A DNA stretch of 64,000 bases, taken from contig CANMIP010000030.1 of assembly GCA_947497945.1 (NCBI GenBank), forward strand, positions 1 to 64,000. The letters run 5' to 3'. How positions within the stretch are numbered: the stretch's first letter is position 1; each line of letters begins with the position of its first letter. The DNA is from an uncultured Tropicimonas sp. GTDB lineage: Bacteria > Pseudomonadota > Alphaproteobacteria > Rhodobacterales > Rhodobacteraceae. Position numbers and translations under genes: made by a program. This document shows positions 4,140 to 13,395 of this stretch, one piece after another. Under the pieces are notes generated by a model. It was not told the DNA's origin, made no database searches, and saw nothing but the letters and a program-made list of their open reading frames with translations.

Positions 4140-5591
4140 CTACCTGTTGCTGAAGACCTCGTGGGATGCCTTCAGGACCGCATCGGTCTGGGGCGCAAAA
4201 TGCTTGTAGACCCTCTCGTTGATGTCGCCGTAGAGGGCCACGTTCTCGGGGATCGGATGGAACACGTCCCGCAGCCGGACCATGTTGTCGATGGCCTCGA
4301 TCCAGTCCTTGTAGATCCCGAGCGCCAGGGCGGTGCAGATCGCCGCCCCCATGCTTGCGGACCCGTTCACCTCGTTGCGATAGGCCGGCACGCCGAACAC
4401 ATCGGCGAAGATCTGCATGAAGAGCTCGCCATTGGAGCCGCCGCCGCTGATGACGATCCGGGTGGGATCGACCTCGCGCTCGTCGCACATCGCCTGGACA
4501 TGGTTCTTCATGGTCATGGCGATGCCTTCGAGCGTCGAGCGGAACATGTGCATCCTGCCATGGGTCCCGTTGAACCCGATCATCATGCCGCGTTCATGCG
4601 GGCGGGTCGGCGGGGCCAGCCAGTTCAGGATCGTCATCAGGCCATCGCTGCCGGCGGTGGTCTCCTCTGCGGCGCGCTGGTTCAGCCAGGCCTCGCGCGA
4701 CATGCCGCGTTCGGCGGCTTCCCGGACGACATCATCGCCCATCACGTCCATCACCCAGGTGACCGTGGACATCCCGCGCCGAATGCCGCCGCTTTCATAA
4801 AGGAACTGTCCGGCCACGGCGCCGGGATTGCTGAAATAGGACGCCATGTCGAAGCGGTTCTCGTCCCCGACCATCATCGAAGCGATATAGGTGCCGAGCG
4901 AGACAAGGACGGAGCCGTCATTGACGATGCCCGCCCCGAGCCCCTCGACCGCCTTGTCATTCGCCGTCGCAACGACGGGGAGCCCCTCGGGGATGCCCGT
5001 GGCAGCACTCGCGGCGGCCGTGACCTGCCCCAGGATCGTGCAGGGATCGACAAGATCGAAGAGCATCTCCCGCGGGGTGGTGAAGGAGGCGAATGTCTCC
5101 GCATCCTCGTACCAGTCCAGCGTGACGGGATCGATGGGCCAGGGGCCAACGTAATTGGCCCGCGTGTCCTTCGTCTCGCCGGTCAGCCGGTGGGTGAGAT
5201 AACCGGTCGTTGTGGTCACCCAGCGGACCGCGTCATCCTCGTGTTCATAGGGGCGCGAGAGGCGCATATCCATCCAGTTCTGCACCGGCGATGCCAGGTT
5301 TCCGTCTTCCCGTATCAGCGCGCGGCAACAGCGGATCGAGCCCAGCCCGACCCCGACTATGTCACCCGCATCGCCGTCGAACATGCCGAGGGCCGCCTGG
5401 CAGGCAACCTTCAGGCTGTCCCACAGATCGTCGTCGGGATGCTCGGCGCGATTGTCGCCATAGAGATCCATCGGACGCAGCTTGACCGTATGCGAGCAGA
5501 TCTGGTGCCCTTCGAGATCGAACAGGGCGACCTTGGTGCTCTGTGTGCCGCCATCGATCGCAATGATGTATTTTGTCTGCACTGTACTCAT
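4140..5591 (-). CDS. ygcE: FGGY-family carbohydrate kinase, YgcE-like
   Basis: This 483-aa sugar kinase would phosphorylate a polyol or sugar acid with ATP in the cytoplasm. The N-terminus has the phosphate-binding motif IIAIDGGTQSTKVALFD. The GLGSIRCCRALI and SGYLTHRLTGE-type segments and the C-terminal GGGSNGELFMQIFADVF nucleotide-binding motif closely resemble E. coli YgcE as I remember it. The start at 5591 has an AGGAGG ribosome-binding site; an in-frame extension to 5723 does not. It is the last recognisable intact gene of the ygc-like operon, 20 nt after the SDR gene. Its substrate is unknown, also in E. coli. Confidence 0.88.
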   Translation of the reverse strand: MSTVQTKYIIAIDGGTQSTKVALFDLEGHQICSHTVKLRPMDLYGDNRAEHPDDDLWDSLKVACQAALGMFDGDAGDIVGVGLGSIRCCRALIREDGNLASPVQNWMDMRLSRPYEHEDDAVRWVTTTTGYLTHRLTGETKDTRANYVGPWPIDPVTLDWYEDAETFASFTTPREMLFDLVDPCTILGQVTAAASAATGIPEGLPVVATANDKAVEGLGAGIVNDGSVLVSLGTYIASMMVGDENRFDMASYFSNPGAVAGQFLYESGGIRRGMSTVTWVMDVMGDDVVREAAERGMSREAWLNQRAAEETTAGSDGLMTILNWLAPPTRPHERGMMIGFNGTHGRMHMFRSTLEGIAMTMKNHVQAMCDEREVDPTRIVISGGGSNGELFMQIFADVFGVPAYRNEVNGSASMGAAICTALALGIYKDWIEAIDNMVRLRDVFHPIPENVALYGDINERVYKHFAPQTDAVLKASHEVFSNR

Positions 5592-5611
5592 AACCTGCCT
5601 CCTCTCTGCGG

Positions 5612-6391
5612 TCAGCGCATCAGGTATCCGCCATCGACGGTCAGAACCGTGCCGTTCACGTAATCCGAAGCAGCACTGGCCAGGAAGACCGTCGCGCCCA
5701 TAAGGTCGGCCGTGTCGCCCCACCTGTTGGCCGGAATATGCGACAGGATCTCGGCGTTGCGCTTCTCGTCCTTGCGGGTCATCTCGGTCAGCGGGGTCGC
5801 GTAATAGCCCGGCGCGATGGCGTTCACCTGGATGTTGAACTGCGCCAGCTCATCGCACATCGCCTTTGTCAGGCCGACAACACCGTGCTTGGTCGAGGCA
5901 TAGGCCGGGGACCATTGCCCGCCAAGGAAAGAATAGAGCGAGCCGATATTGATGATCTTGCCGCTCTTCTGCGCGATCATGTGCGGGCAGACCTCGTGGA
6001 TCATCTCGAAGGCCGCGGTCAGGTTCACCGCAATCATCTTGTCCCACTGGGTGCGACAATACTTGGTGATGTCCTTCTCGTTGATGCTGATACCGGCGCA
6101 GTTGATCAGGATATCGACGCTGCCCCAGCTCGCCAAACACTCGTCGACAACCTGCTTGCAGACGCCCTCGGCGGTGATGTCGGCCTCCACGAACTTGTAG
6201 GCGGCCCCGCTGGATTCGACCAGCGCGCGGGTCGTGCCGTCATCATCCACGAGGCTCGGCACCAGGACATTGGCCCCCGCCTTGGCAAGCCCGGTCGAGA
6301 AGGCCTGCCCGAGGCCGCCATTCCCGCCGGTTACGATCGCGTTTTTTCCCTTCAGCGAGAAAAAGTCCAAACTGAAATCAGTCGGCTGCAT
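5612..6391 (-). CDS. ygcW: SDR-family dehydrogenase, YgcW/KduD-like
   Basis: A classical short-chain dehydrogenase of 259 aa. The NAD-binding TGGNGGLGQAF motif is near residue 20. The active site has Ser in NIGSLYSFLGG, and Tyr and Lys in YASTKH, so it is intact. The LDFFSLKGK N-terminus and the HIPANRWGDTADLMG segment match E. coli YgcW; KduD (2-deoxygluconate 3-dehydrogenase) is the nearest characterised relative. The start overlaps the end of the upstream ETF alpha gene by 14 nt, implying translational coupling. The gene probably interconverts a hydroxyl and keto group on the pathway substrate or on its oxidised product. Redox direction and substrate are not readable. Confidence 0.9.
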   Translation of the reverse strand: MQPTDFSLDFFSLKGKNAIVTGGNGGLGQAFSTGLAKAGANVLVPSLVDDDGTTRALVESSGAAYKFVEADITAEGVCKQVVDECLASWGSVDILINCAGISINEKDITKYCRTQWDKMIAVNLTAAFEMIHEVCPHMIAQKSGKIINIGSLYSFLGGQWSPAYASTKHGVVGLTKAMCDELAQFNIQVNAIAPGYYATPLTEMTRKDEKRNAEILSHIPANRWGDTADLMGATVFLASAASDYVNGTVLTVDGGYLMR

Positions 6392-7331
6392 TTTCCTGCT
6401 CCTCCTTGACTTTACAAAGCAGATCCCGAGCGAATGCGACCGCATCTCCAACCACCACGATATCCGCGAGACTGCAGATGGGGGCTTTCGCATTCGTGTT
6501 GACACAGATGATGGAGTCGGCGCCCTCGAGGGCGGCGACATGCTGGCTGGCGCCATGGATTCCCATGGCCATGTAGAGGCGCGGCGCGACCGTCTTGCCG
6601 GTTTGCCCGACCTGCAGGCTGCGCGGCGCGACGCCCCGGTTGACGAGGGCACGACTGGTCGAGAGCTGGCCGCCAAGCGCCTCGGCAAGCGGCCTAAGCG
6701 CGTCGATCCGCTCGCCCACGCCACCGCCGGCGGAAATCAGGATGTCGGCGTCCCGAATGTCGCGCTCGGCTCTCTCGGCGCGCCCAAGCAGGCGAACACC
6801 GCCGCGGCGCACGCCCTGCCCCGCGCCTTCGAGGATTTCGGTCGCCCTGCCGGGCCGGCCCGCGCCGTGGAAGACGCGCGGCTTCACCGTGACGACAGCG
6901 GGGACGCCCTTCGAGACCGCGATGACGGCCAGGTCTCCGCCGCGGGACAGCGGCCGCAGGAAGCGGATGCCCTCTTCGGCCGGCTCGATGCCGCAGATCT
7001 CCGGCACGAGCGCGGCGCCGAGCTTCGTTGCCAGCCTGGGCGCCAACATGCTGCCCCACTGGCTGCCCGGCGCAAGGATGCAGGCGAAACCGAACACCCG
7101 GTGCTCCGCCGCGGCAAGATCCGCGATTGCCCGGACCTCGCCTTCCCCGATCTCGGGCTCGGTCACCGAGACCACCCGGTCGACCCAGCCCGACAGCGCC
7201 GCGGGGTCGCCATTGACGACCAGCGCGAAAATCTCGCAGGGCGCGCCGCCGGCGACCTGCTGCGCCGCGGCAAGCAGGTCCGCCGCGACCCGGCCTTGGG
7301 CCTGTTCCGTGATGATGAGAACCCGGAGCAC
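6378..7331 (-). CDS. ygcQ: Electron transfer flavoprotein alpha subunit, YgcQ-like
   Basis: This 317-aa protein is an ETF alpha subunit. The C-terminal FAD domain shows ISAGGGVG, then VGQTGKTVAPRLYMAMGIHGASQH and NTNAKAPI, the conserved FAD-contact segments. With EtfB it carries electrons from the partner dehydrogenase. A GTG start at 7331 follows the EtfB stop by one nucleotide. The C-terminus overlaps the next gene by 14 nt. Being sandwiched in a sugar-type operon beside an FAD dehydrogenase, it is a dedicated ETF like E. coli YgcQ, not the housekeeping beta-oxidation ETF. No ETF:quinone oxidoreductase is encoded nearby, so electrons presumably go to the housekeeping one. Confidence 0.9.
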   Translation of the reverse strand: MLRVLIITEQAQGRVAADLLAAAQQVAGGAPCEIFALVVNGDPAALSGWVDRVVSVTEPEIGEGEVRAIADLAAAEHRVFGFACILAPGSQWGSMLAPRLATKLGAALVPEICGIEPAEEGIRFLRPLSRGGDLAVIAVSKGVPAVVTVKPRVFHGAGRPGRATEILEGAGQGVRRGGVRLLGRAERAERDIRDADILISAGGGVGERIDALRPLAEALGGQLSTSRALVNRGVAPRSLQVGQTGKTVAPRLYMAMGIHGASQHVAALEGADSIICVNTNAKAPICSLADIVVVGDAVAFARDLLCKVKEEQENAAD

Positions 7332-7332
7332 C

Positions 7333-8121
7333 TCAGAGGACCCCCATGTCTTTCAGGAAGTCATGGACCAGCGCGACGCCAGCGGCATCACCCTCGACGA
7401 CCCTGGTCGTCCGGTCCTTCCGGCCTCCGGCACGAAGCTCCACGACCCGGCTCAGGGCCGCCGCCGGCCCGACCTCGGTCGGAGCGAATTCCAGATCCCG
7501 GTTGTCCAGTTTGCACAGCTTGTCCGAGACATCCCGCGCCTGGTCCTTCAGCCGCGGATAGGGCAGCCGGTAACCGCTCCTTGCGGAGAGGCCGAGGATG
7601 GCGGGGAAATCGACCCCGTAACGGCGCGCGCAGGTCTCGTCGCGAAGCTCCACGATCGCGCCTGACGCGGTGAAGTCCGTTTCGTCGATCTCGCGGATGA
7701 AGGACAGGTGGTTGATCTCCAGCACTTCGGCGAGATGCGGCGGCAGGCAGGCCGCGCCGCCCTCGACGGTCTGGCTGCCCGCGAGGATGCAGTCATAGCC
7801 GACCGCGTCGAGCGATCTTCCGATGATCCTGGCTTCGGTCAAACTGTCGCTTCCTTGATAGAGCGGGTCCGAGATGACGGTGACGCGGTCGGCGCCGACC
7901 CTTGCGATATCCGCTGCAAGCGCGGTCGCAGGCATCTCCGCCAGAATGAATATCTCGACACGGATCTCCGAATTCCGGCGCTTCATGTCGAGGGCAAAGC
8001 CGATGGCGCAGGCATCGTCGGGATGCAGGCGCGCCTCGGGGGTGTCCCGGACGGGGACCAGGGGCTCCGTGTCGGAGCGGACGCCGTCCGGGACGGTTTT
8101 TGCGATGCAGACCAGCTTCAT
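7333..8121 (-). CDS. ygcR: Electron transfer flavoprotein beta subunit, YgcR-like
   Basis: The 262-aa protein starts MKLVCIAKTVPDGVRSD and continues with DACAIGFALDMKRR and the AGSQTVEGGAACLPPHLAEVL segment that binds AMP in EtfB proteins. I chose the ATG at 8121, preceded by GGAATAGG and lying 4 nt after the transporter stop. An upstream in-frame codon at 8136 would overlap the transporter and lacks family similarity. It forms a heterodimer with the following alpha subunit. The pairing with an FAD-linked dehydrogenase and MFS carrier reproduces the E. coli ygc cluster, whose physiological role is not established. Confidence 0.9.
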   Translation of the reverse strand: MKLVCIAKTVPDGVRSDTEPLVPVRDTPEARLHPDDACAIGFALDMKRRNSEIRVEIFILAEMPATALAADIARVGADRVTVISDPLYQGSDSLTEARIIGRSLDAVGYDCILAGSQTVEGGAACLPPHLAEVLEINHLSFIREIDETDFTASGAIVELRDETCARRYGVDFPAILGLSARSGYRLPYPRLKDQARDVSDKLCKLDNRDLEFAPTEVGPAAALSRVVELRAGGRKDRTTRVVEGDAAGVALVHDFLKDMGVL

Positions 8122-8125
8122 CAGC

Positions 8126-9430
8126 CTATTCCGCAATCACCTCGGCAGTGGCCGTGGCCTGCGCCTTCTCGGCGCTGTGCAGCCAGTTGAACACCAGCGC
8201 GAGGATCGCACCGACGACGCCGAGCATTGCACTGACCAGGAAGTAGGCCGTGTAGCCGCCGGTATCGCCATAGGTGTTCCACAGATAGGAATTGAGCTGC
8301 GGCAGGATGATATCCGGCAGGTAGCCGACCAGGGAGATCAGGCCGATGGCCGATCCCATCATCACCGCGTCGATTCCCGCCGAGCCCAGAAGCGACCAGT
8401 AGGTGCCACGGATCGCGTAGAGGAAGCCGCCGAGGAGGATGATCAGGATCGAGAACAGCATCGGCGACATGGTGATGGGCAGGATCGCGATCAGCACCAG
8501 GAAGGCAGACGCTCCCAGCGTGGCACCACAGATCGTGTAGGGCCGTCCGTAGCGATCCGCGAGGAAGCCGCCGATGAAACCGCCCACAGGGCGCATCCAC
8601 AGCACGATGGCCGTGACCGTGCCGACCGTGACCGCATCCATGCCGATATTGGTCTGCAAGAAGCCGCCAAGATAGTAGACGGTCCAGAACACGGCGTAGC
8701 CCATGAAGATGATGCTGCCCATCAGGTAGACATACTTGTTCTTCAGCAGCTTGCCGAGATCGGAGAAGCGGAACTTGCTGGCTTCATCCACCTGGGTGCC
8801 TTCCTCGGCATGTTCTGCCAGCTGCGTGTCGTTCTCGACAAAGAGCATGATGAGGATCGCGGCGGCGCCGACGATGGCGGAATAGAGGTTGATCACGGCA
8901 ACCAGCGCATCATGCTTGTCGGCCACCTCGACGCTCGAGCCGAGGATCGAGGCGAAGATCGCCAGGCCGATCGTGCCCATCAGCGCTTCGACCACGCCGC
9001 GTCCACCGTCGAGAATGCCGAAGAACCGGCCCTCCTCGGAGGCGCGCGAGAGCATCTTCACGAGCTTCAGGTGAGAGCTCCAGAAGGTGAAGACCGAGAA
9101 GAAGCCCCAGAGGAAGAAGATCGTGCGGACCGAGGATTCCCCCGGCACCGTGCCGAACCAGAAACCGCAGAGCGACACGCCCAGCAGCGAGATGCCGATC
9201 AGCCATTTGGCCGGGAGCTTGTCGCTGAGCAATCCGCTGGGCAGGTAGCCGATGATATAGGCGAGGCCCAGGACGGAATAGAAATTGTTCAGGCTGGTCA
9301 GTTCCAGGTTGAACACCTCAAGGATCGTCTCCTGGTAATTCGTCCTGAGATAGATCACCGGGTAGATCGCCCCGGCGGCTATCACCACAAGGAAGAACTG
9401 GAAGTAACGCCGATAGTTCCCTTTTGACAT
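8126..9430 (-). CDS. MFS transporter of the ygc-like cluster (YihN/YqcE type)
   Basis: This 434-aa integral membrane protein has about 12 hydrophobic segments with a charged central loop near residues 205-225. The MFS signature GLLSDKLPAKW follows helix 2 and GFLADRYGRPYTI follows helix 8. The N-terminal YFQFFLVVIAAGAIYPVIYLR helix resembles E. coli YihN/YqcE carriers, and YqcE is encoded within the E. coli ygc region. The AGGAGG site 7 nt before the start at 9430 is clear. It likely imports the substrate processed by the flanking dehydrogenase, ETF and kinase. It begins 192 nt downstream of the ygcU-like gene. Confidence 0.88.
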   Translation of the reverse strand: MSKGNYRRYFQFFLVVIAAGAIYPVIYLRTNYQETILEVFNLELTSLNNFYSVLGLAYIIGYLPSGLLSDKLPAKWLIGISLLGVSLCGFWFGTVPGESSVRTIFFLWGFFSVFTFWSSHLKLVKMLSRASEEGRFFGILDGGRGVVEALMGTIGLAIFASILGSSVEVADKHDALVAVINLYSAIVGAAAILIMLFVENDTQLAEHAEEGTQVDEASKFRFSDLGKLLKNKYVYLMGSIIFMGYAVFWTVYYLGGFLQTNIGMDAVTVGTVTAIVLWMRPVGGFIGGFLADRYGRPYTICGATLGASAFLVLIAILPITMSPMLFSILIILLGGFLYAIRGTYWSLLGSAGIDAVMMGSAIGLISLVGYLPDIILPQLNSYLWNTYGDTGGYTAYFLVSAMLGVVGAILALVFNWLHSAEKAQATATAEVIAE

Positions 9431-9596
9431 AGGTCTCCTCCTGACACGTATGTATAGCTGGACCAGCCGGCAAACCGGTTTTCGGCAGGATGGGCCGGCC
9501 AGGTTGGTGGGTGTGGATCGCGATGCCCCCGGGACTGTCCGGCAAACGCCCGGATGCATCTTTCTTGCCAGGGAGCGGCCTCCGGGAACGGTCCTC

Positions 9597-9622
9597 ACGT
9601 TCCGGAGAAACGCTCCGGACGT
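9597..9622 (-). terminator. Stem-loop directly after the ygcU-like gene
   Basis: The inverted repeat TCCGGAG (9601-9607) and CTCCGGA (9613-9619) is extended by ACG/CGT with one bulge and sits at the ygcU-like stop codon. No U-run follows on the minus strand. It is more likely a partial attenuator or processing or stability stem between the dehydrogenase and the transporter than a full terminator. Confidence 0.4.
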
Positions 9623-11104
9623 TCACTCTTCCTGGTAGATGTATTTGCGGATCTCATCCGTCGGGAAGATGGTGCCGTGATTCATGATGCCGTTCGGATC
9701 GAAGGCTTCCTTGAGTTTTTCGAGCATGTAGAAGGCCGTCCCATGCTCGTCCTTCGTCCATTCGCTGCGGAATTTGCCGATGCCGTGGTGGTGACACATG
9801 GAGCCGCCATGCTTCAGGGTCTCCTCCACGATGATCTTCTGGATCGGGTGATGATAGACGAGCAGCTCGTCTTCCGGCGCGCAGTGGATCTTGTAGTTGT
9901 AGACGAAGTACATGTTGGTGCCGTTGAGATAGCTGTGGGACGAGTGCCCTCCCAGCATGGTCAGGTCTTCGACCCGCCCGAACTCGGCCTTCACCCGCGC
10001 CATCACCGATGTGTAGATCGCCGGGATGGTCTCCCAGTCGGCGGAGATCTCGGTCGTGTAGCCGGCATGGGAATCGCTGGTCCGCATCTCCTCGAACTCG
10101 TCGTCGATATCCTGCTGCGACCAGTTGAGATTGTCGAACCAGTCGCTGATCAGCTGGCTGTCGACCTGGCTCAGGATCCCGTCCTGATGGGTCCTGACGG
10201 CTTCCTCGATCGCGTCCCCGGTTGCATCGGCGATGCCCTTCGGCCCCTCGGCCATGAACAGCAGCACGCATTTGCCATCATGGAAATGATAGAAATGCTG
10301 TGCCGCATCCTCTTCGGAATAGACGCGCGCGACAGAGGGCCGGAACCCGTTGACCATGACTTCCCGCAGCACCTTCAGGCCGCTTTCCACGTCCTTGACG
10401 AGGTAGCCGTAGAACTTGTTGTTCTCGGGGAAGTACTTGAAGATCTTCACCGTGACTTCGGTGATGTAGCAGAGCGCCCCTTCATTGCCGATCACGACAT
10501 GGCGGATATCCGGGCCGCCCGCGCGGCGCGACACATTCTTGATCCGCGAGACATACCCGTCCGGGAAGACGCACTCCAGCCCGACCACCATGTCCTCGAT
10601 GCCGCCATAGAGCGTCGAGAACTGGCCGATGCTGCGCGTCGCGACAAGGCCACCGAACTTGGCGACGGGCTTGGATTGCGGCGAGTGGCCGGTGGTGTAG
10701 CCGATCTTGCGCAGCTCGTCCTCGAGCACCTGCAGCGGCACACCGGCCTGCACCGTGGCCTGGCTGTTATAGGGGTCGATCTTGAGGATCTTGTCGAGCT
10801 TGAGCGTGTCGATGACGAGGGTCGTGTCCTTCCAGTTCTCCAGCCCGCCCTCGGTCGCGGTCATGCCGGCGCGGGGGATGACGTTGATCCGCTCCCGGTT
10901 GCAGAACTTCAGAAGCGCACTGACCTCCTGCACGCTGGCGGGATAGACAATTGCGACAGGCGCGGGAACATCCAGCGCCTTGCGGGTCTTTGCGTATTTC
11001 TTGTACCGGTCCGCGGATGCCTCGTAGAGATCCGCCTCATTCGTGTTGATCTGTTCAGGGGTGACGATGTCCGTCAGCTGATCCAGGACTGCCTTCGAGT
11101 TCAA
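9623..11104 (-). CDS. ygcU: FAD-linked dehydrogenase of the VAO/AGPS type, YgcU-like
   Basis: A 493-aa flavoprotein with an N-terminal PCMH-type FAD domain (RAGMTATEGGLEN; TTGHSPQSKP; GGLVATRSIGQFSTLYGG) and a C-terminal cap with GGHSSHSYLNGTNMYF and the histidine-rich HHHGIGKFR motif shared with alkyl-DHAP synthase-like oxidases. Conserved blocks match E. coli YgcU very closely. I choose a TTG start at 11104: it has an AGGAGG site at correct spacing and gives NSKAVLDQLTDIV, aligning with the YgcU N-terminus. The ATG at 11140 has no ribosome-binding site and lies on an operator palindrome. It probably oxidises a 2-hydroxy acid or alcohol and reduces the adjacent ETF. Confidence 0.9.
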   Translation of the reverse strand: MNSKAVLDQLTDIVTPEQINTNEADLYEASADRYKKYAKTRKALDVPAPVAIVYPASVQEVSALLKFCNRERINVIPRAGMTATEGGLENWKDTTLVIDTLKLDKILKIDPYNSQATVQAGVPLQVLEDELRKIGYTTGHSPQSKPVAKFGGLVATRSIGQFSTLYGGIEDMVVGLECVFPDGYVSRIKNVSRRAGGPDIRHVVIGNEGALCYITEVTVKIFKYFPENNKFYGYLVKDVESGLKVLREVMVNGFRPSVARVYSEEDAAQHFYHFHDGKCVLLFMAEGPKGIADATGDAIEEAVRTHQDGILSQVDSQLISDWFDNLNWSQQDIDDEFEEMRTSDSHAGYTTEISADWETIPAIYTSVMARVKAEFGRVEDLTMLGGHSSHSYLNGTNMYFVYNYKIHCAPEDELLVYHHPIQKIIVEETLKHGGSMCHHHGIGKFRSEWTKDEHGTAFYMLEKLKEAFDPNGIMNHGTIFPTDEIRKYIYQEE

Positions 11105-11125
11105 GATGAATCCTCCTGCAAGGCT

Positions 11126-11266
11126 TGGAAACTTTTCCATTATTTCAAGCGAGAATCTATGAGATAGATACGATTCTGTCAAGAAAGCGCTTCGGTTTTC
11201 CGCCATTTGCACGCAAAAAGGAACATTTTGGAAATATTTCCATTCTAAATATGGAAAATTTTCCAT
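11126..11266. promoter_or_regulatory. Three palindromic operators in the ygcU / rpiR divergent promoter
   Basis: Three sites share TGGAAA-NN-TTTCCA: 11126-11139 (TGGAAACTTTTCCA, one central mismatch pair), 11229-11242 (TGGAAATATTTCCA, perfect) and 11251-11266 (ATGGAAAATTTTCCAT, perfect 16-mer). They lie between the divergent ygcU-like gene and an RpiR-family regulator. RpiR-family proteins such as IolR are known to bind GGAA/TTCC-type palindromes, so these are the probable binding sites of the neighbouring regulator. Promoter elements were not resolved. Confidence 0.75.
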
Positions 11267-11329
11267 TTTGATTGCGCAACATCCCCTCTTCGCGCAATAT
11301 GGTGACCAGCAAGAAGGCAGAGACACCAA

Positions 11330-12037
11330 ATGATCCGCATCGATTTCGACGCCCTGAACCCGCTTGAGCAGAAAATCCATTCGACGCTGAAGGAACACAG
11401 CAAGACCACCGAGACAATCAGCATCATGCAGGCGGCCGAGATCTGCGGCTGCTCGGTTTCCAAGATCTCGAAATTCAGCAAGAAGCTCGGCTTCAACACC
11501 TACAGGCGGTATCTCGACTTCTTGTACGAACGCGAAGACCCGGAGCCGGCGCACTCCTCCGAACTGGAACGGCTATCGCGCTTCATCGAAGAGTTCGACA
11601 GCGCGAAGGTCGACGCCCTCGTGGACCTGATCGGCACGCGCGAAAAGCTCGTGATCCTCGGATACGGCCCGTCATTCTATTGCGCCCAGTATTTCGAGTA
11701 CAAACTCAAGACCTGCGCCGGCAAGATGGCCACGGCGGTCGCGGACGAGCTTCTCGCCACTTCCATGACCGATGAGAACACGCTCGTGCTGGCCTTGACC
11801 GTGACCGGCAGGTTCAAATCCTTCGACGGCGTGCTGCGCGACGCGAAGGAGAAGGGGGGCGACATGGCGATCATTGTCGAAGAGTACGACCCGTCCCTGA
11901 TCGAACGGTACCGCAAGGTGTTCTGCCTGACCGAACAGGCGCAGCCGGGCGACCTTCAGCCCTTCGAAAAGAGCCGGACCGTCATCTTCATCTTCCTCGA
12001 AGAGGTGGTCCGAAGATTGATGCGCAAGCCTCGGTGA
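11330..12037 (+). CDS. RpiR/MurR-family transcriptional regulator (HTH + SIS)
   Basis: This 235-aa protein has an N-terminal HTH_6 domain (residues about 1-70: ISIMQAAEICGCSVSKISKFSKKLGF) and a C-terminal SIS sugar-phosphate-binding domain (about 100-225: KLVILGYGPSFYCAQYFEYKL and LALTVTGRFKSFDG). SIS domains in this family sense a phosphosugar. The product of the FGGY kinase in the divergent operon is a reasonable candidate ligand, but this is inference. The gene is divergent from ygcU with three shared palindromes between them, so it likely controls both the operon and itself. The SIS domain is shorter than usual, since typical family members are about 280 aa. Confidence 0.88.
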   Translation: MIRIDFDALNPLEQKIHSTLKEHSKTTETISIMQAAEICGCSVSKISKFSKKLGFNTYRRYLDFLYEREDPEPAHSSELERLSRFIEEFDSAKVDALVDLIGTREKLVILGYGPSFYCAQYFEYKLKTCAGKMATAVADELLATSMTDENTLVLALTVTGRFKSFDGVLRDAKEKGGDMAIIVEEYDPSLIERYRKVFCLTEQAQPGDLQPFEKSRTVIFIFLEEVVRRLMRKPR

Positions 12038-12187
12038 CGGGCGGATCGCGGCAGTCTCTGCACTCAACACCCTGTATTTAAATCAAATACATGCCTGACC
12101 TGGCCCGGACCGGCCCTCCGGCCATTGCAAATGCTGCATAGCAGCATTGACCATTCCACCCGTTCTCATACCGGTTTGGAACTATAC

Positions 12188-12213
12188 CTTGATGTCAGAA
12201 GATAGCGCTAACA
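12188..12213 (+). promoter_or_regulatory. Candidate heat-shock (RpoH-type) promoter of the DUF1127 gene
   Basis: CTTGAT at 12188-12193 and CTAACA at 12208-12213 are 14 nt apart, the spacing of sigma-32 promoters, and lie about 80 nt before the DUF1127 start. The -10 match is weak. Related Rhodobacter DUF1127-CcsR units are RpoHI/RpoHII-dependent, which is the main reason to suggest it. Two small palindromes lie just upstream: TGTATTT/AAATACA at 12073-12091 and ATGCTGC/GCAGCAT at 12131-12147. Confidence 0.3.
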
Positions 12214-12294
12214 CGCACGATGCGGAAGGCGCTTGCAATTGCCCGGCGCGCCCGTCTCCCCCCGAGGCCGCCACACAGAACAGGATTGAAGACA

Positions 12295-12498
12295 ATGGAA
12301 ACGACGCTGAACACCAACGCCTCTGTAAGCTGGTTCTCCGCACCGGTCGCCGCCTACCGCGTCCGCACGGAACAGTACCGCACCTATCGCCGGACCATCC
12401 GGGAACTCTCGGACCTGTCCGACCGCGCGCTCGCCGATCTCGGCCTGAGCCGCTCGATGATCAAGTCGATCGCCCGCGAGGCCGCTTACGGCGCCTGA
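12295..12498 (+). CDS. DUF1127 (YjiS-like) small protein
   Basis: A 67-aa basic protein whose C-terminal half carries the DUF1127 signature: a helix ending in LSDLSDRALADLGLSRSMI. The start at 12295 is taken over an in-frame codon at 12220 because the family consists of about 50-75-aa proteins. In Rhodobacter a DUF1127 gene (RSP_6037, CcaF1) is cotranscribed with anti-Shine-Dalgarno CcsR small RNAs under stress sigma factors and acts in RNA metabolism. The same arrangement is seen here because a hairpin RNA with the CCUCCUCCC motif lies immediately 3'. Direct evidence for RNA binding by this protein is not available from sequence. Confidence 0.85.
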   Translation: METTLNTNASVSWFSAPVAAYRVRTEQYRTYRRTIRELSDLSDRALADLGLSRSMIKSIAREAAYGA

Positions 12499-12514
12499 GG
12501 AAGATTGACCGAAC

Positions 12515-12592
12515 TCGGAAGACCCCTCCTCCTCCCTGGGTCGATCCGATTGGGCGACGACACCATCTCCTCCCCGGTGTCGTCGCCCTTCT
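12515..12592 (+). ncRNA. CcsR/cuckoo-like anti-Shine-Dalgarno small RNA in the DUF1127 3' UTR
   Basis: Two stem-loops follow the DUF1127 stop. The first pairs TCGGA-GACCC (12515-12525) with GGGTC-TCCGA (12538-12549), exposing CTCCTCCTCCCT, which contains CCUCCUCCC. The second is a perfect 13-bp stem, GGGCGACGACACC (12552-12564) with GGTGTCGTCGCCC (12576-12588). Its loop is ATCTCCTCCCC, and TTCTTTT follows, so it doubles as the Rho-independent terminator. Paired loops with this motif downstream of DUF1127 match the CcsR arrangement described in Rhodobacter. Here there is a single copy rather than four. Confidence 0.75.
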
Positions 12593-12753
12593 TTTATCTG
12601 GCTGCAGGATTTCCACGCCTCCAGGAGAGGCCCGCGCGGCATCAACGGCCCGTGTCGCCAGAAGCGACGCCGGCGGCCGGCGCTTTTCGCCAAAGCTGCG
12701 GAGGCAACTCCCTCGCCGAGAACGCGCTGCGCGCCCGGCCGTGCGCTTCCCTG

Positions 12754-13395
12754 TCAGGGGGCCCAGCGCAGGAAGTTCGAGATCATCCGCAATCCCGCGC
12801 GCTGGCTTTTCTCCGGGTGAAACTGGGTGCCGATCATGTTGTCGCGCCCGATGATCGCCGTGACATCGCCGCCATAATCGGCATGCGCGAGGCGATCCGC
12901 GTCATTCTCGACCTTCACCTGGTAGGAATGGACGAAATACGCGTGATCGCCGGTCTCGATCCCGTCCAGAACAGGGTGTGTCCCGGTCACGATCAGGTCG
13001 TTCCAGCCCATATGTGGCACTTTCAGCGACCTGTCCGACGGCTCGATAGGAACCACCTCGCCGCCAATCCAGTCGAAGCCGGGCGTGTCCACGTATTCGC
13101 GCCCTACAGAGACCATCATCTGCATGCCGATGCAGATTCCCATGAAGGGCCGCCCCTTGACGCGCACGGCCTCCTCGATTGCCTCATGCAGACCGGAATG
13201 CCCGTCCAGGGCCGCCTTGCAGGCCGGGTAGGCGCCATCGCCAGGCAGCACAACCCGATCCGCGCGGGCCACGTCCTCGGGCCGGCCGGAAATGATCACC
13301 TCGCCGGCACCGGCTTCCGCCGCCATCCGCTGGAAGGCCTTCTCGGCCGAGTGCAGGTTGCCGCTTTCATAATCAACGACAATGGTCAGCGACAT
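12754..13395 (-). CDS. hisH: Imidazole glycerol phosphate synthase, glutamine amidotransferase subunit
   Basis: HisH hydrolyses glutamine and channels ammonia to HisF in histidine biosynthesis. The 213-aa protein begins TIVVDYESGNLHS. It has the nucleophile in GICIGMQ (Cys88; most homologs have GICLGMQ) and the catalytic His193/Glu195 in FHPEKS. Its ATG shares one base with the hisB stop codon (TGATG), so the pair is translationally coupled. In many Rhodobacterales hisA and hisF follow directly. Here the coding strand ends and the next feature is the terminator of the DUF1127 unit, so hisA and hisF must be elsewhere. Confidence 0.95.
   Translation of the reverse strand: MSLTIVVDYESGNLHSAEKAFQRMAAEAGAGEVIISGRPEDVARADRVVLPGDGAYPACKAALDGHSGLHEAIEEAVRVKGRPFMGICIGMQMMVSVGREYVDTPGFDWIGGEVVPIEPSDRSLKVPHMGWNDLIVTGTHPVLDGIETGDHAYFVHSYQVKVENDADRLAHADYGGDVTAIIGRDNMIGTQFHPEKSQRAGLRMISNFLRWAP

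Follow-up and report, generated by a model that had tools for sequence, protein, structure and literature searches.

The window considered here, the first 64,000 nucleotides (64 kb, from base 1 onward) of contig CANMIP010000030.1 (C30) of an uncultured Tropicimonas sp. (assembly GCA_947497945.1; genome of 5.79 Mb in 115 contigs), carries a six-gene operon and a divergent regulator gene that are almost certainly one conserved, self-regulated catabolic unit shared with Escherichia coli, where the related genes lie in the ygc region. A quaternary-ammonium glycerol compound of some kind is probably its substrate, a class better supported than sugar acids or polyols; the more specific proposal, that of a mobile cassette for a glycerol-built quaternary-ammonium compound, with glyceryl-N,N,N-trimethylhomoserine as the best guess and the steps as set out below, is advanced with evenly balanced confidence. 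Glyceryl-trimethylhomoserine is the deacylated, ether-linked head group of the betaine lipid diacylglyceryl-N,N,N-trimethylhomoserine (DGTS), which occurs in algae and fungi.

The operon runs on the minus strand from 11104 down to 4140 and encodes, in order, a YgcU-type flavin adenine dinucleotide (FAD) enzyme of FAD_binding_4/FAD-oxidase_C architecture resembling alkyl-dihydroxyacetone-phosphate (alkyl-DHAP) synthase (9623..11104, with a TTG start after AGGAGG); a YqcE-type major facilitator superfamily (MFS) carrier (8126..9430); the beta (7333..8121) and alpha (6378..7331) subunits of an electron transfer flavoprotein (ETF); a YgcW-type short-chain dehydrogenase/reductase (SDR; 5612..6391); and a YgcE-type FGGY kinase (4140..5591). 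Internal spacings are 192, 4, 1, -14 and 20 bp, and the ETF is regarded as dedicated, the genome encoding one other ETF pair, on contig C45. The divergent plus-strand gene (11330..12037) encodes an RpiR/SIS transcriptional regulator whose HTH_6 and SIS domains both score above their gathering thresholds (RpiR/MurR regulator). The operon and its regulator had been described in a first-pass annotation of the window, and both are real and lie where it placed them.

Relation to the E. coli ygc genes

The same annotation had proposed an equivalence to E. coli ygcU, ygcR/ygcQ, ygcW and ygcE, which stands for three of the proteins and is less clear for the ETF pair. In a BLASTP comparison confined to ten K-12 ygc-region proteins, the FAD enzyme is 56% identical to YgcU, the SDR 61% to YgcW and the kinase 49% to YgcE; ETF alpha is 33% identical to YgcQ over just 82 amino acids, and ETF beta has no YgcR match at E 1e-3, leaving the pair only distantly YgcQ/R-like. 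The MFS carrier is 26% identical to YqcE in this comparison and has no match to YgcS, which is thereby ruled out as the carrier of the operon; YgcS-like carriers adjoin the lyase set described below in Priestia and in genome G892.

The portion of the literature returned by gene-name searches assigns the E. coli ygc genes to no pathway; the one deletion encountered, that of ygcU in enterohaemorrhagic E. coli, is reported not to relieve D-serine repression (PMC13012123). The E. coli genes are thus already known and, as far as seen, unassigned, the window contributing a further, horizontally gained member. Neither the substrate class, the alkyl-DHAP synthase clue, the operator nor the lyase link was found in the portion of open-licence papers retrieved.

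Conservation of the core and of its neighbours

A pattern scan of species genomes gave 358 relatives, the best 80 of which provide the loci used here; their hosts are mostly Bacillota, Spirochaetota and Desulfotignum, joined by Cohaesibacter and two Pseudovibrio, and many are related to one another (Enterococcus, for example). Among the 53 of these loci that span at least 20 kb, tblastn at E <= 1e-10 detects the SDR and the kinase at every one, always within 6 kb of the FAD gene and with lowest identities of 59% and 45%, RpiR at 50, and each ETF subunit at 41, the 12 loci without ETF all belonging to Bacillaceae-type hosts. An MFS match is present at 36, in some cases only ~25% identical and 7 kb away. 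Genome-neighbourhood comparison, the check suggested with the first-pass annotation, therefore bears out a conserved co-occurrence of FAD gene, SDR, kinase (53/53) and ETF (41/53), the constancy of SDR and kinase being far more than chance would give. Matches to YgcN, YgcO and YgcS were absent from all 80 loci by tblastn. Thirteen of the 80 have a gene for a SurE-type phosphatase close to that of the kinase (L037, L042, L046, L047, L048, L051, L054, L057, L058, L060, L061, L066 and L072).

The genes beyond the kinase had been taken to narrow the substrate to a sugar acid or polyol, and this part of the earlier annotation falls away. Spacing widens past the operon (507 bp from kinase to aminotransferase, 746 bp from aminotransferase to kduI), no operator is found at those genes, and tblastn gives no kduI and no aminotransferase match at any of the 80 loci, while the zinc dehydrogenase has only 28-29% matches, at four; none of the three is accordingly retained as part of the system, and since kduI and the aminotransferase are absent throughout, they do not define the substrate. 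In the window, kduI and the zinc dehydrogenase gene form a tight pair 46 bp apart (3-1752), the latter truncated by the contig start.

A sugar-acid or polyol pathway, in which an aldonate, uronate or polyol enters by the MFS carrier, one of its hydroxyls is oxidised by the FAD enzyme with electrons passing to ETF, the SDR performs a redox step and the kinase phosphorylates the product, nevertheless has support from the enzymes themselves and is judged unlikely rather than remote. The closest solved SDRs are 2-deoxy-D-gluconate dehydrogenases, and the window SDR is KduD-like, although it falls below the KduD equivalog cut-offs (272.8 of 338.85 bits for TIGR01832 and 321.4 of 369 for NF005390); the closest solved kinase is an autoinducer-2 (AI-2) kinase, the nearest kinase models are those of xylulokinase and AI-2 kinase, and the RpiR/SIS regulator is also in keeping with sugars. 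Besides the window, kduI lies near the cassette on one of four plasmids examined (Ilyobacter pILYOP02), and kduD/kdg genes do so on a Vibrio pelagius plasmid, an association that reads as one of neighbouring catabolic islands. Against such a pathway stand the locus counts just given and a core that has neither aldolase nor epimerase, and it leaves unaccounted for both the excess of quaternary-ammonium carriers and the linked amine lyase, to which we now turn.

Quaternary-ammonium carriers at cassette loci

Carriers of the BCCT and OpuC families move quaternary ammonium compounds. BCCT genes occur at 17 of the 53 loci and OpuCB or OpuCC genes at 15, never both, together accounting for 32. In one scan, the BCCT proteins matched the BCCT models for glycine betaine, choline and carnitine without reaching any of their cut-offs, whereas an OpuCA protein passed the cut-off of the betaine/proline/choline ProV subfamily and an OpuCC protein matched OsmF below its cut-off. 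Enrichment was assessed in the genomes of 33 of the 80 loci, hand-chosen and mostly named isolates: a BCCT gene is present in 24, and in 12 it lies inside the cassette locus, where chance would give 0.5; the nominal P of 9e-16 treats related genomes as independent. In six of the nine genomes with a single BCCT gene, that gene is the one in the cluster.

A linked lyase set in relatives

Next to the cassette, Mesobacillus, Bacillus and Neobacillus carry genes for an aspartase-like lyase, an aldehyde dehydrogenase (ALDH) resembling betaine aldehyde dehydrogenase (BADH) and a zinc alcohol dehydrogenase (Zn-ADH). At E <= 1e-140 the lyase is found in 6 of 193 genomes of one Bacillota family, all six of which also carry the FAD gene, five in one cluster and one ~15 kb apart; in the Bacillota order the FAD gene is present in 23 of 299 genomes at E <= 1e-150. 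L150, from one of these six genomes, falls in the E. coli-like YgcU subgroup, its FAD enzyme being 65% identical to YgcU and 56% to that of the window. A Priestia plasmid has the order ADH, ALDH, lyase, IclR, a carrier 56% identical to E. coli YgcS and then the cassette, with a FAD gene of the same clade as those of the Bacillaceae lyase genomes, and the Vibrio pelagius plasmid presents a separate case, with BCCT, an RpiR-like gene, SDR, FAD gene, kinase, lyase, ALDH and a second BCCT. The carriers thus point to a quaternary ammonium compound, and the ADH, ALDH and lyase to an alcohol that becomes an aspartate betaine.

The lyases of these clusters depart from aspartases at the amine-contacting pocket. 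All 11 cluster-type lyases have I at position 101, S at 142 (A in one of them) and C at 188 (AspB numbering), whereas the 10 aspartase-type sequences, that of E. coli AspA included, all keep N142 and have Q or H at 188; these counts leave out a mixed tandem lyase of Peribacillus (L164) and one match in genome G448. Positions 187, 188 and 318-326 were placed by motif spacing and 101 and 142 by their presumed location in AspB, a role of T101 in the pocket being likewise presumed. The cluster lyases keep the catalytic serine loop together with K324, N326 and T187, and those scanned fall below the TIGR00839 cut-off of 681.2 bits (442.1 for L064; 255.9, 425.6 and 337 for three others). A study of AspB describes amine contacts by N142 and H188 and an alpha-carboxylate pocket made up of T187, M321, K324 and N326 (PMC11744663). 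The cluster-type pocket has the features to be predicted for a lyase acting on an N-substituted aspartate.

Some further arrangements were seen around lyase genes. In Peribacillus (G433:C3:110978-116345; L155, L164) two lyase genes flank ALDH and ADH, the second being the mixed one (V, N, C). A Bacillota genome with two cassette copies has C-terminal Zn-ADH remnants beside rpiR (L152:6371-6523 and L153:11717-11869), which may be the trace of a formerly adjoining lyase set. Only aspartase-type lyase matches occur in 7 of 32 cassette genomes, that of Tropicimonas among them; its alphaproteobacterial match has the aspartase signature and was rejected as a cluster-type enzyme. Another cassette genome, G441 (C42:62387-63652; L160), has a lyase gene of the aspartase type next to OpuCA- and OpuCB-like genes.

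Two readings other than glyceryl-trimethylhomoserine bear directly on these neighbours. The first, rather unlikely, keeps the same chemistry with another quaternary-ammonium glycerol compound, such as the head group of the betaine lipids diacylglyceryl-hydroxymethyl-trimethyl-beta-alanine (DGTA) or diacylglyceryl-carboxyhydroxymethylcholine (DGCC), a glycerol adduct of choline or carnitine, or trimethylammonio-propanediol, given that the leaving group is not fixed by the transporter and alkyl-DHAP synthase evidence; yet the combination of ADH, BADH-like ALDH and a lyase that keeps its carboxylate pocket fits the conversion of trimethylhomoserine to aspartate betaine, and on chemical reasoning most of the alternatives give no beta-carboxylate for elimination. 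The second, which we regard as quite improbable, is mere co-location, with BCCT, OpuC and the lyase set acting on free betaines in osmolyte or homoserine-betaine islands, and the YgcU-YgcW-YgcE enzymes on something else. Homoserine betaine is described as a free osmolyte, found free in sea water, in the accessible part of PMC13403184; several cassette hosts are halophiles, judged by name; and the lyase lies on a different contig from the FAD gene in G433 and G451. The linkage recurs, however, across unrelated hosts, different gene orders and both YgcU subgroups, and in six anaerobe genomes the sole BCCT gene sits in the cassette.

The FAD enzyme and alkyl-DHAP synthase

The clue to a glyceryl ether comes from the flavoenzyme, whose nearest family of solved structures in the Protein Data Bank (PDB) is that of alkyl-DHAP synthase (E 6e-58); less close are glycolate oxidase (2e-32), D-lactate and D-2-hydroxyglutarate dehydrogenases and LctD. 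HHH is a defining motif of alkyl-DHAP synthase. In all 109 family members, the HHH motif (H438-H440), R260, Y399, H140, H387 and H390 are invariant, and R260 and Y399 align with R352 and Y508 of the Dictyostelium enzyme (chain index plus 3), residues which, with R447, are named as catalytically important in the accessible part of PMC3509576. Because five distant alphaproteobacterial proteins share HHH, the motif marks a group wider than YgcU; these are distinct HHH-type alkyl-DHAP-synthase-like proteins encoded by five alphaproteobacterial genomes (L007-L011) and 32-34% identical to the window enzyme. Glycolate or lactate oxidation, which the first-pass annotation had given as an example of a known function that would refute its reading, is not favoured, the enzyme scoring 135.4 bits against a cut-off of 567.9 for the GlcD model TIGR00387 and having HHH rather than EHG, and the same difference from the glycolate oxidase active site tells against sugar-acid oxidation.

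A proposed ether-opening route

The SDR, kinase and alkyl-DHAP-synthase-like enzyme are together the activities with which a DHAP ether could be made from a glyceryl ether and cleaved, so that no aldolase would be needed, and a C3 phosphate as product would account for the absence of an aldolase from the core. Uptake would occur through the YqcE-type MFS carrier in Tropicimonas and through BCCT or OpuC-type carriers elsewhere; the YgcW-type SDR would oxidise the free secondary hydroxyl of the glycerol, and the YgcE-type kinase would phosphorylate its end hydroxyl, yielding an analogue of 1-O-alkyl-DHAP. The YgcU-type flavoenzyme may then open the ether by attack of FAD N5 on C1, expelling the betaine alcohol and releasing the C3 unit either as DHAP, with no net redox change, or, should the flavin iminium undergo hydrolysis by water, as an oxidised C3 aldehyde, a course that leaves FAD reduced, to be reoxidised by the dedicated ETF; it is this hydrolysis that, we infer, would explain why an ETF is present. 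Where the lyase set occurs, the Zn-ADH, BADH-like ALDH and aspartase-like lyase could carry trimethylhomoserine to trimethylaspartate and then to fumarate and trimethylamine.

Glyceryl-trimethylhomoserine meets the carrier, lyase-set and glyceryl-ether clues, and also that of a glycerol-phosphate effector, described below. Absence of BtaA from the Tropicimonas genome is neutral for a substrate of external origin. According to the accessible part of PMC10132767, DGTS rises under phosphorus shortage, for example in Phaeobacter. A bacterial pathway for the breakdown of betaine-lipid head groups was not found in the portion of the open-licence literature retrieved, judged mostly from titles and the beginnings of abstracts. 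The fullest form of the proposal, a widespread, mobile, ETF-coupled ether-opening route for betaine-lipid head groups, in which an alkyl-DHAP-synthase-like flavoenzyme works in the direction of breakdown and from which some bacteria go on, by means of an aspartase relative, to release trimethylamine from N,N,N-trimethylaspartate, and which would supply a function for the E. coli ygc genes, is tentative and leans towards doubtful. If true, it would be an undescribed route by which lipids of algae, fungi or plants become trimethylamine in sediments, in sea water and in the gut, a means of recycling the betaine lipids that stand in for phospholipids under phosphorus shortage, a novel role for the alkyl-DHAP synthase fold and a new bacterial source of trimethylamine; in any event, the comparative evidence leads to a specific, testable substrate class.

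Regulation

Three near-perfect palindromes occupy the spacer between rpiR and the FAD gene and recur nowhere else in the window at up to three mismatches: the predicted operators TGGAAAATTTTCCA (11252..11265), with 0 mismatches to the motif TGGAAANNTTTCCA, TGGAAATATTTCCA (11229..11242) and TGGAAACTTTTCCA (11126..11139). The last sits a short way downstream of a sigma-70-like box (TTGACA-17-TAGATT, 11182 to 11154, minus strand), which is not evidence by itself because the scan found one such box with 2.0 expected by chance. Allowing two mismatches, TGGAAANNTTTCCA is present in 57 of 58 divergent rpiR-FAD spacers, that of the window included, with 92 sites in all, whereas 200 mononucleotide shuffles gave 1.08 on average and never more than 6. 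In Bacillaceae loci with rpiR at the operon end the motif is mostly not seen. In the Tropicimonas genome, three of four exact sites are those of the rpiR-FAD spacer; the fourth (G000:C11:72855-72868; L137:8856) lies between a ugp-like ABC operon and hydrogenase genes, both identified by eye, with no clear gene start alongside. The earlier suggestion of a dedicated RpiR regulator is upheld by the divergent gene and its conserved predicted operator, and from that conservation RpiR would be expected to repress the operon, possibly until a phosphorylated intermediate appears. Exact operators in ten genomes, with nine stretches around extra sites inspected, gave nothing convincing as a regulon outside the operon, most extra sites lying inside genes or beside unrelated ones.

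At 9 of the 53 loci a GlpP-type glycerol-3-phosphate antiterminator replaces or joins RpiR. This regulator, of which YgcP is the E. coli relative, is found at four of five Bacillota loci of the E. coli-like subgroup (L107-L110), the fifth, on the short contig L150, showing none, and also in Streptomyces. GlpP-type regulators fit an effector resembling a glycerol phosphate.

Weight of the evidence

Gene content, orthology, co-occurrence, the operator, the linkage of carriers and lyase and the conservation of residues are computed results; the substrates, the reactions and the sequence of steps are all proposals built on them. Several observations count against glyceryl-trimethylhomoserine cleavage as proposed. 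The locus counts are not independent events, many hosts being related; 21 of the 53 loci have neither BCCT nor OpuCB/OpuCC, and the operon in the window shows only the MFS carrier. Zn-ADH is not annotated on the Vibrio pelagius plasmid stretch, and a lyase with the cluster signature occurs in only 3 of 32 further cassette genomes (the Tropicimonas genome included in the set), in two of them on another contig than the FAD gene, so that the absence of the lyase set leaves the fate of the betaine alcohol unexplained in most cassette genomes; the aspartase-type gene in G441 means, moreover, that adjacency of OpuC and lyase genes is not unique to the cluster type. In the flavoenzyme, the position of Dictyostelium R447 falls beside an insertion near E336, with no conserved arginine in the family, and since R447 is not kept, binding of phosphate or substrate must differ from that in alkyl-DHAP synthase. 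Alkyl-DHAP synthase itself works through oxidised FAD and a flavin-DHAP iminium in a redox-neutral reaction, according to the accessible part of PMC3509576, so a dedicated ETF needs an extra assumption, and in E. coli the neighbouring ygcN and ygcO genes point to an overall oxidation. The AI-2 kinase and 2-deoxy-gluconate dehydrogenase relatives, finally, fit sugars equally.

Distribution and probable horizontal gain

The set had been described as alphaproteobacterial; it is instead a rare cassette that has spread horizontally. At E <= 1e-60, the FAD enzyme is matched in 6 of 385 genomes of the class, Tropicimonas itself and five others whose proteins (32-34% identity) fall outside the YgcU clade, and a search of 60 near genomes, including its own and eight congeners, gave no match in the other 59. 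In a tree of 43 of the 114 collected FAD-enzyme sequences, the window sequence joins Cohaesibacter and two Pseudovibrio (support 100/100), and this alphaproteobacterial group is nested within a group of 12 rows that also contains Bacillota, Spirochaetota and one Desulfobacteraceae bin (98/95). The cassette is also found on plasmids, one of which, from Ilyobacter polytropus, is typed as conjugative and carries it at L169:12001-18211 with the ETF pair at the cassette end. Horizontal gain is the simplest reading.

The 10-17 kb examined beside hisH in all eight congeners contain no match to the FAD enzyme, kinase, ETF, MFS carrier, RpiR, kduI or aminotransferase, with weak SDR (29%) and zinc-dehydrogenase (36%) matches in one. 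The his operon of Tropicimonas is split, its hisB-hisH end adjoining the cassette (window 12037-13395) and hisA-hisF lying on contig C14 (37978-38739); hisA and hisF are near hisH in seven of the eight congeners, the closest congener (G387) having neither there but other genes, and no cassette.

Comparison with known systems

Among known flavoenzymes, the alkyl-DHAP synthases AGPS and ADPS (PDB 4bby, 2uuu) are the closest PDB entries across the FAD domain and the C-terminal part and share HHH and the equivalents of R352 and Y508; the window enzyme differs in having no conserved counterpart of R447 and in belonging to a catabolic operon with ETF, outside a lipid setting. The lactate dehydrogenase LctD works with an ETF partner. 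In its complex with EtfAB (PDB 7qh2_C), it is similar as a FAD_binding_4 dehydrogenase (E 9.5e-22), and glycolate oxidase (9qgz) has EHG where the YgcU family has HHH. AspA and AspB share with the linked lyases the fold family, the catalytic serine loop and the carboxylate-pocket residues; the linked lyases differ in the amine-contact positions, changed in 11 of 11, and in scores below equivalog cut-offs for the four scanned. Sinorhizobium meliloti IolR, an RpiR-family repressor, has GGAA...TTCC-like palindromes, in contrast to the operator here, TGGAAANNTTTCCA, which is tied to the cassette. Closest of all is the E. coli ygcN-ygcE region (ygcP, ygcQ, ygcR, ygcS, ygcU, ygcW, yqcE, ygcE), which has orthologues of the FAD enzyme, SDR and FGGY kinase in common with the window and resembles it further in a YqcE-type MFS carrier and an ETF pair, the window differing in that RpiR replaces YgcP, YgcS is absent, the gene order is another and the ETF is only distantly alike.

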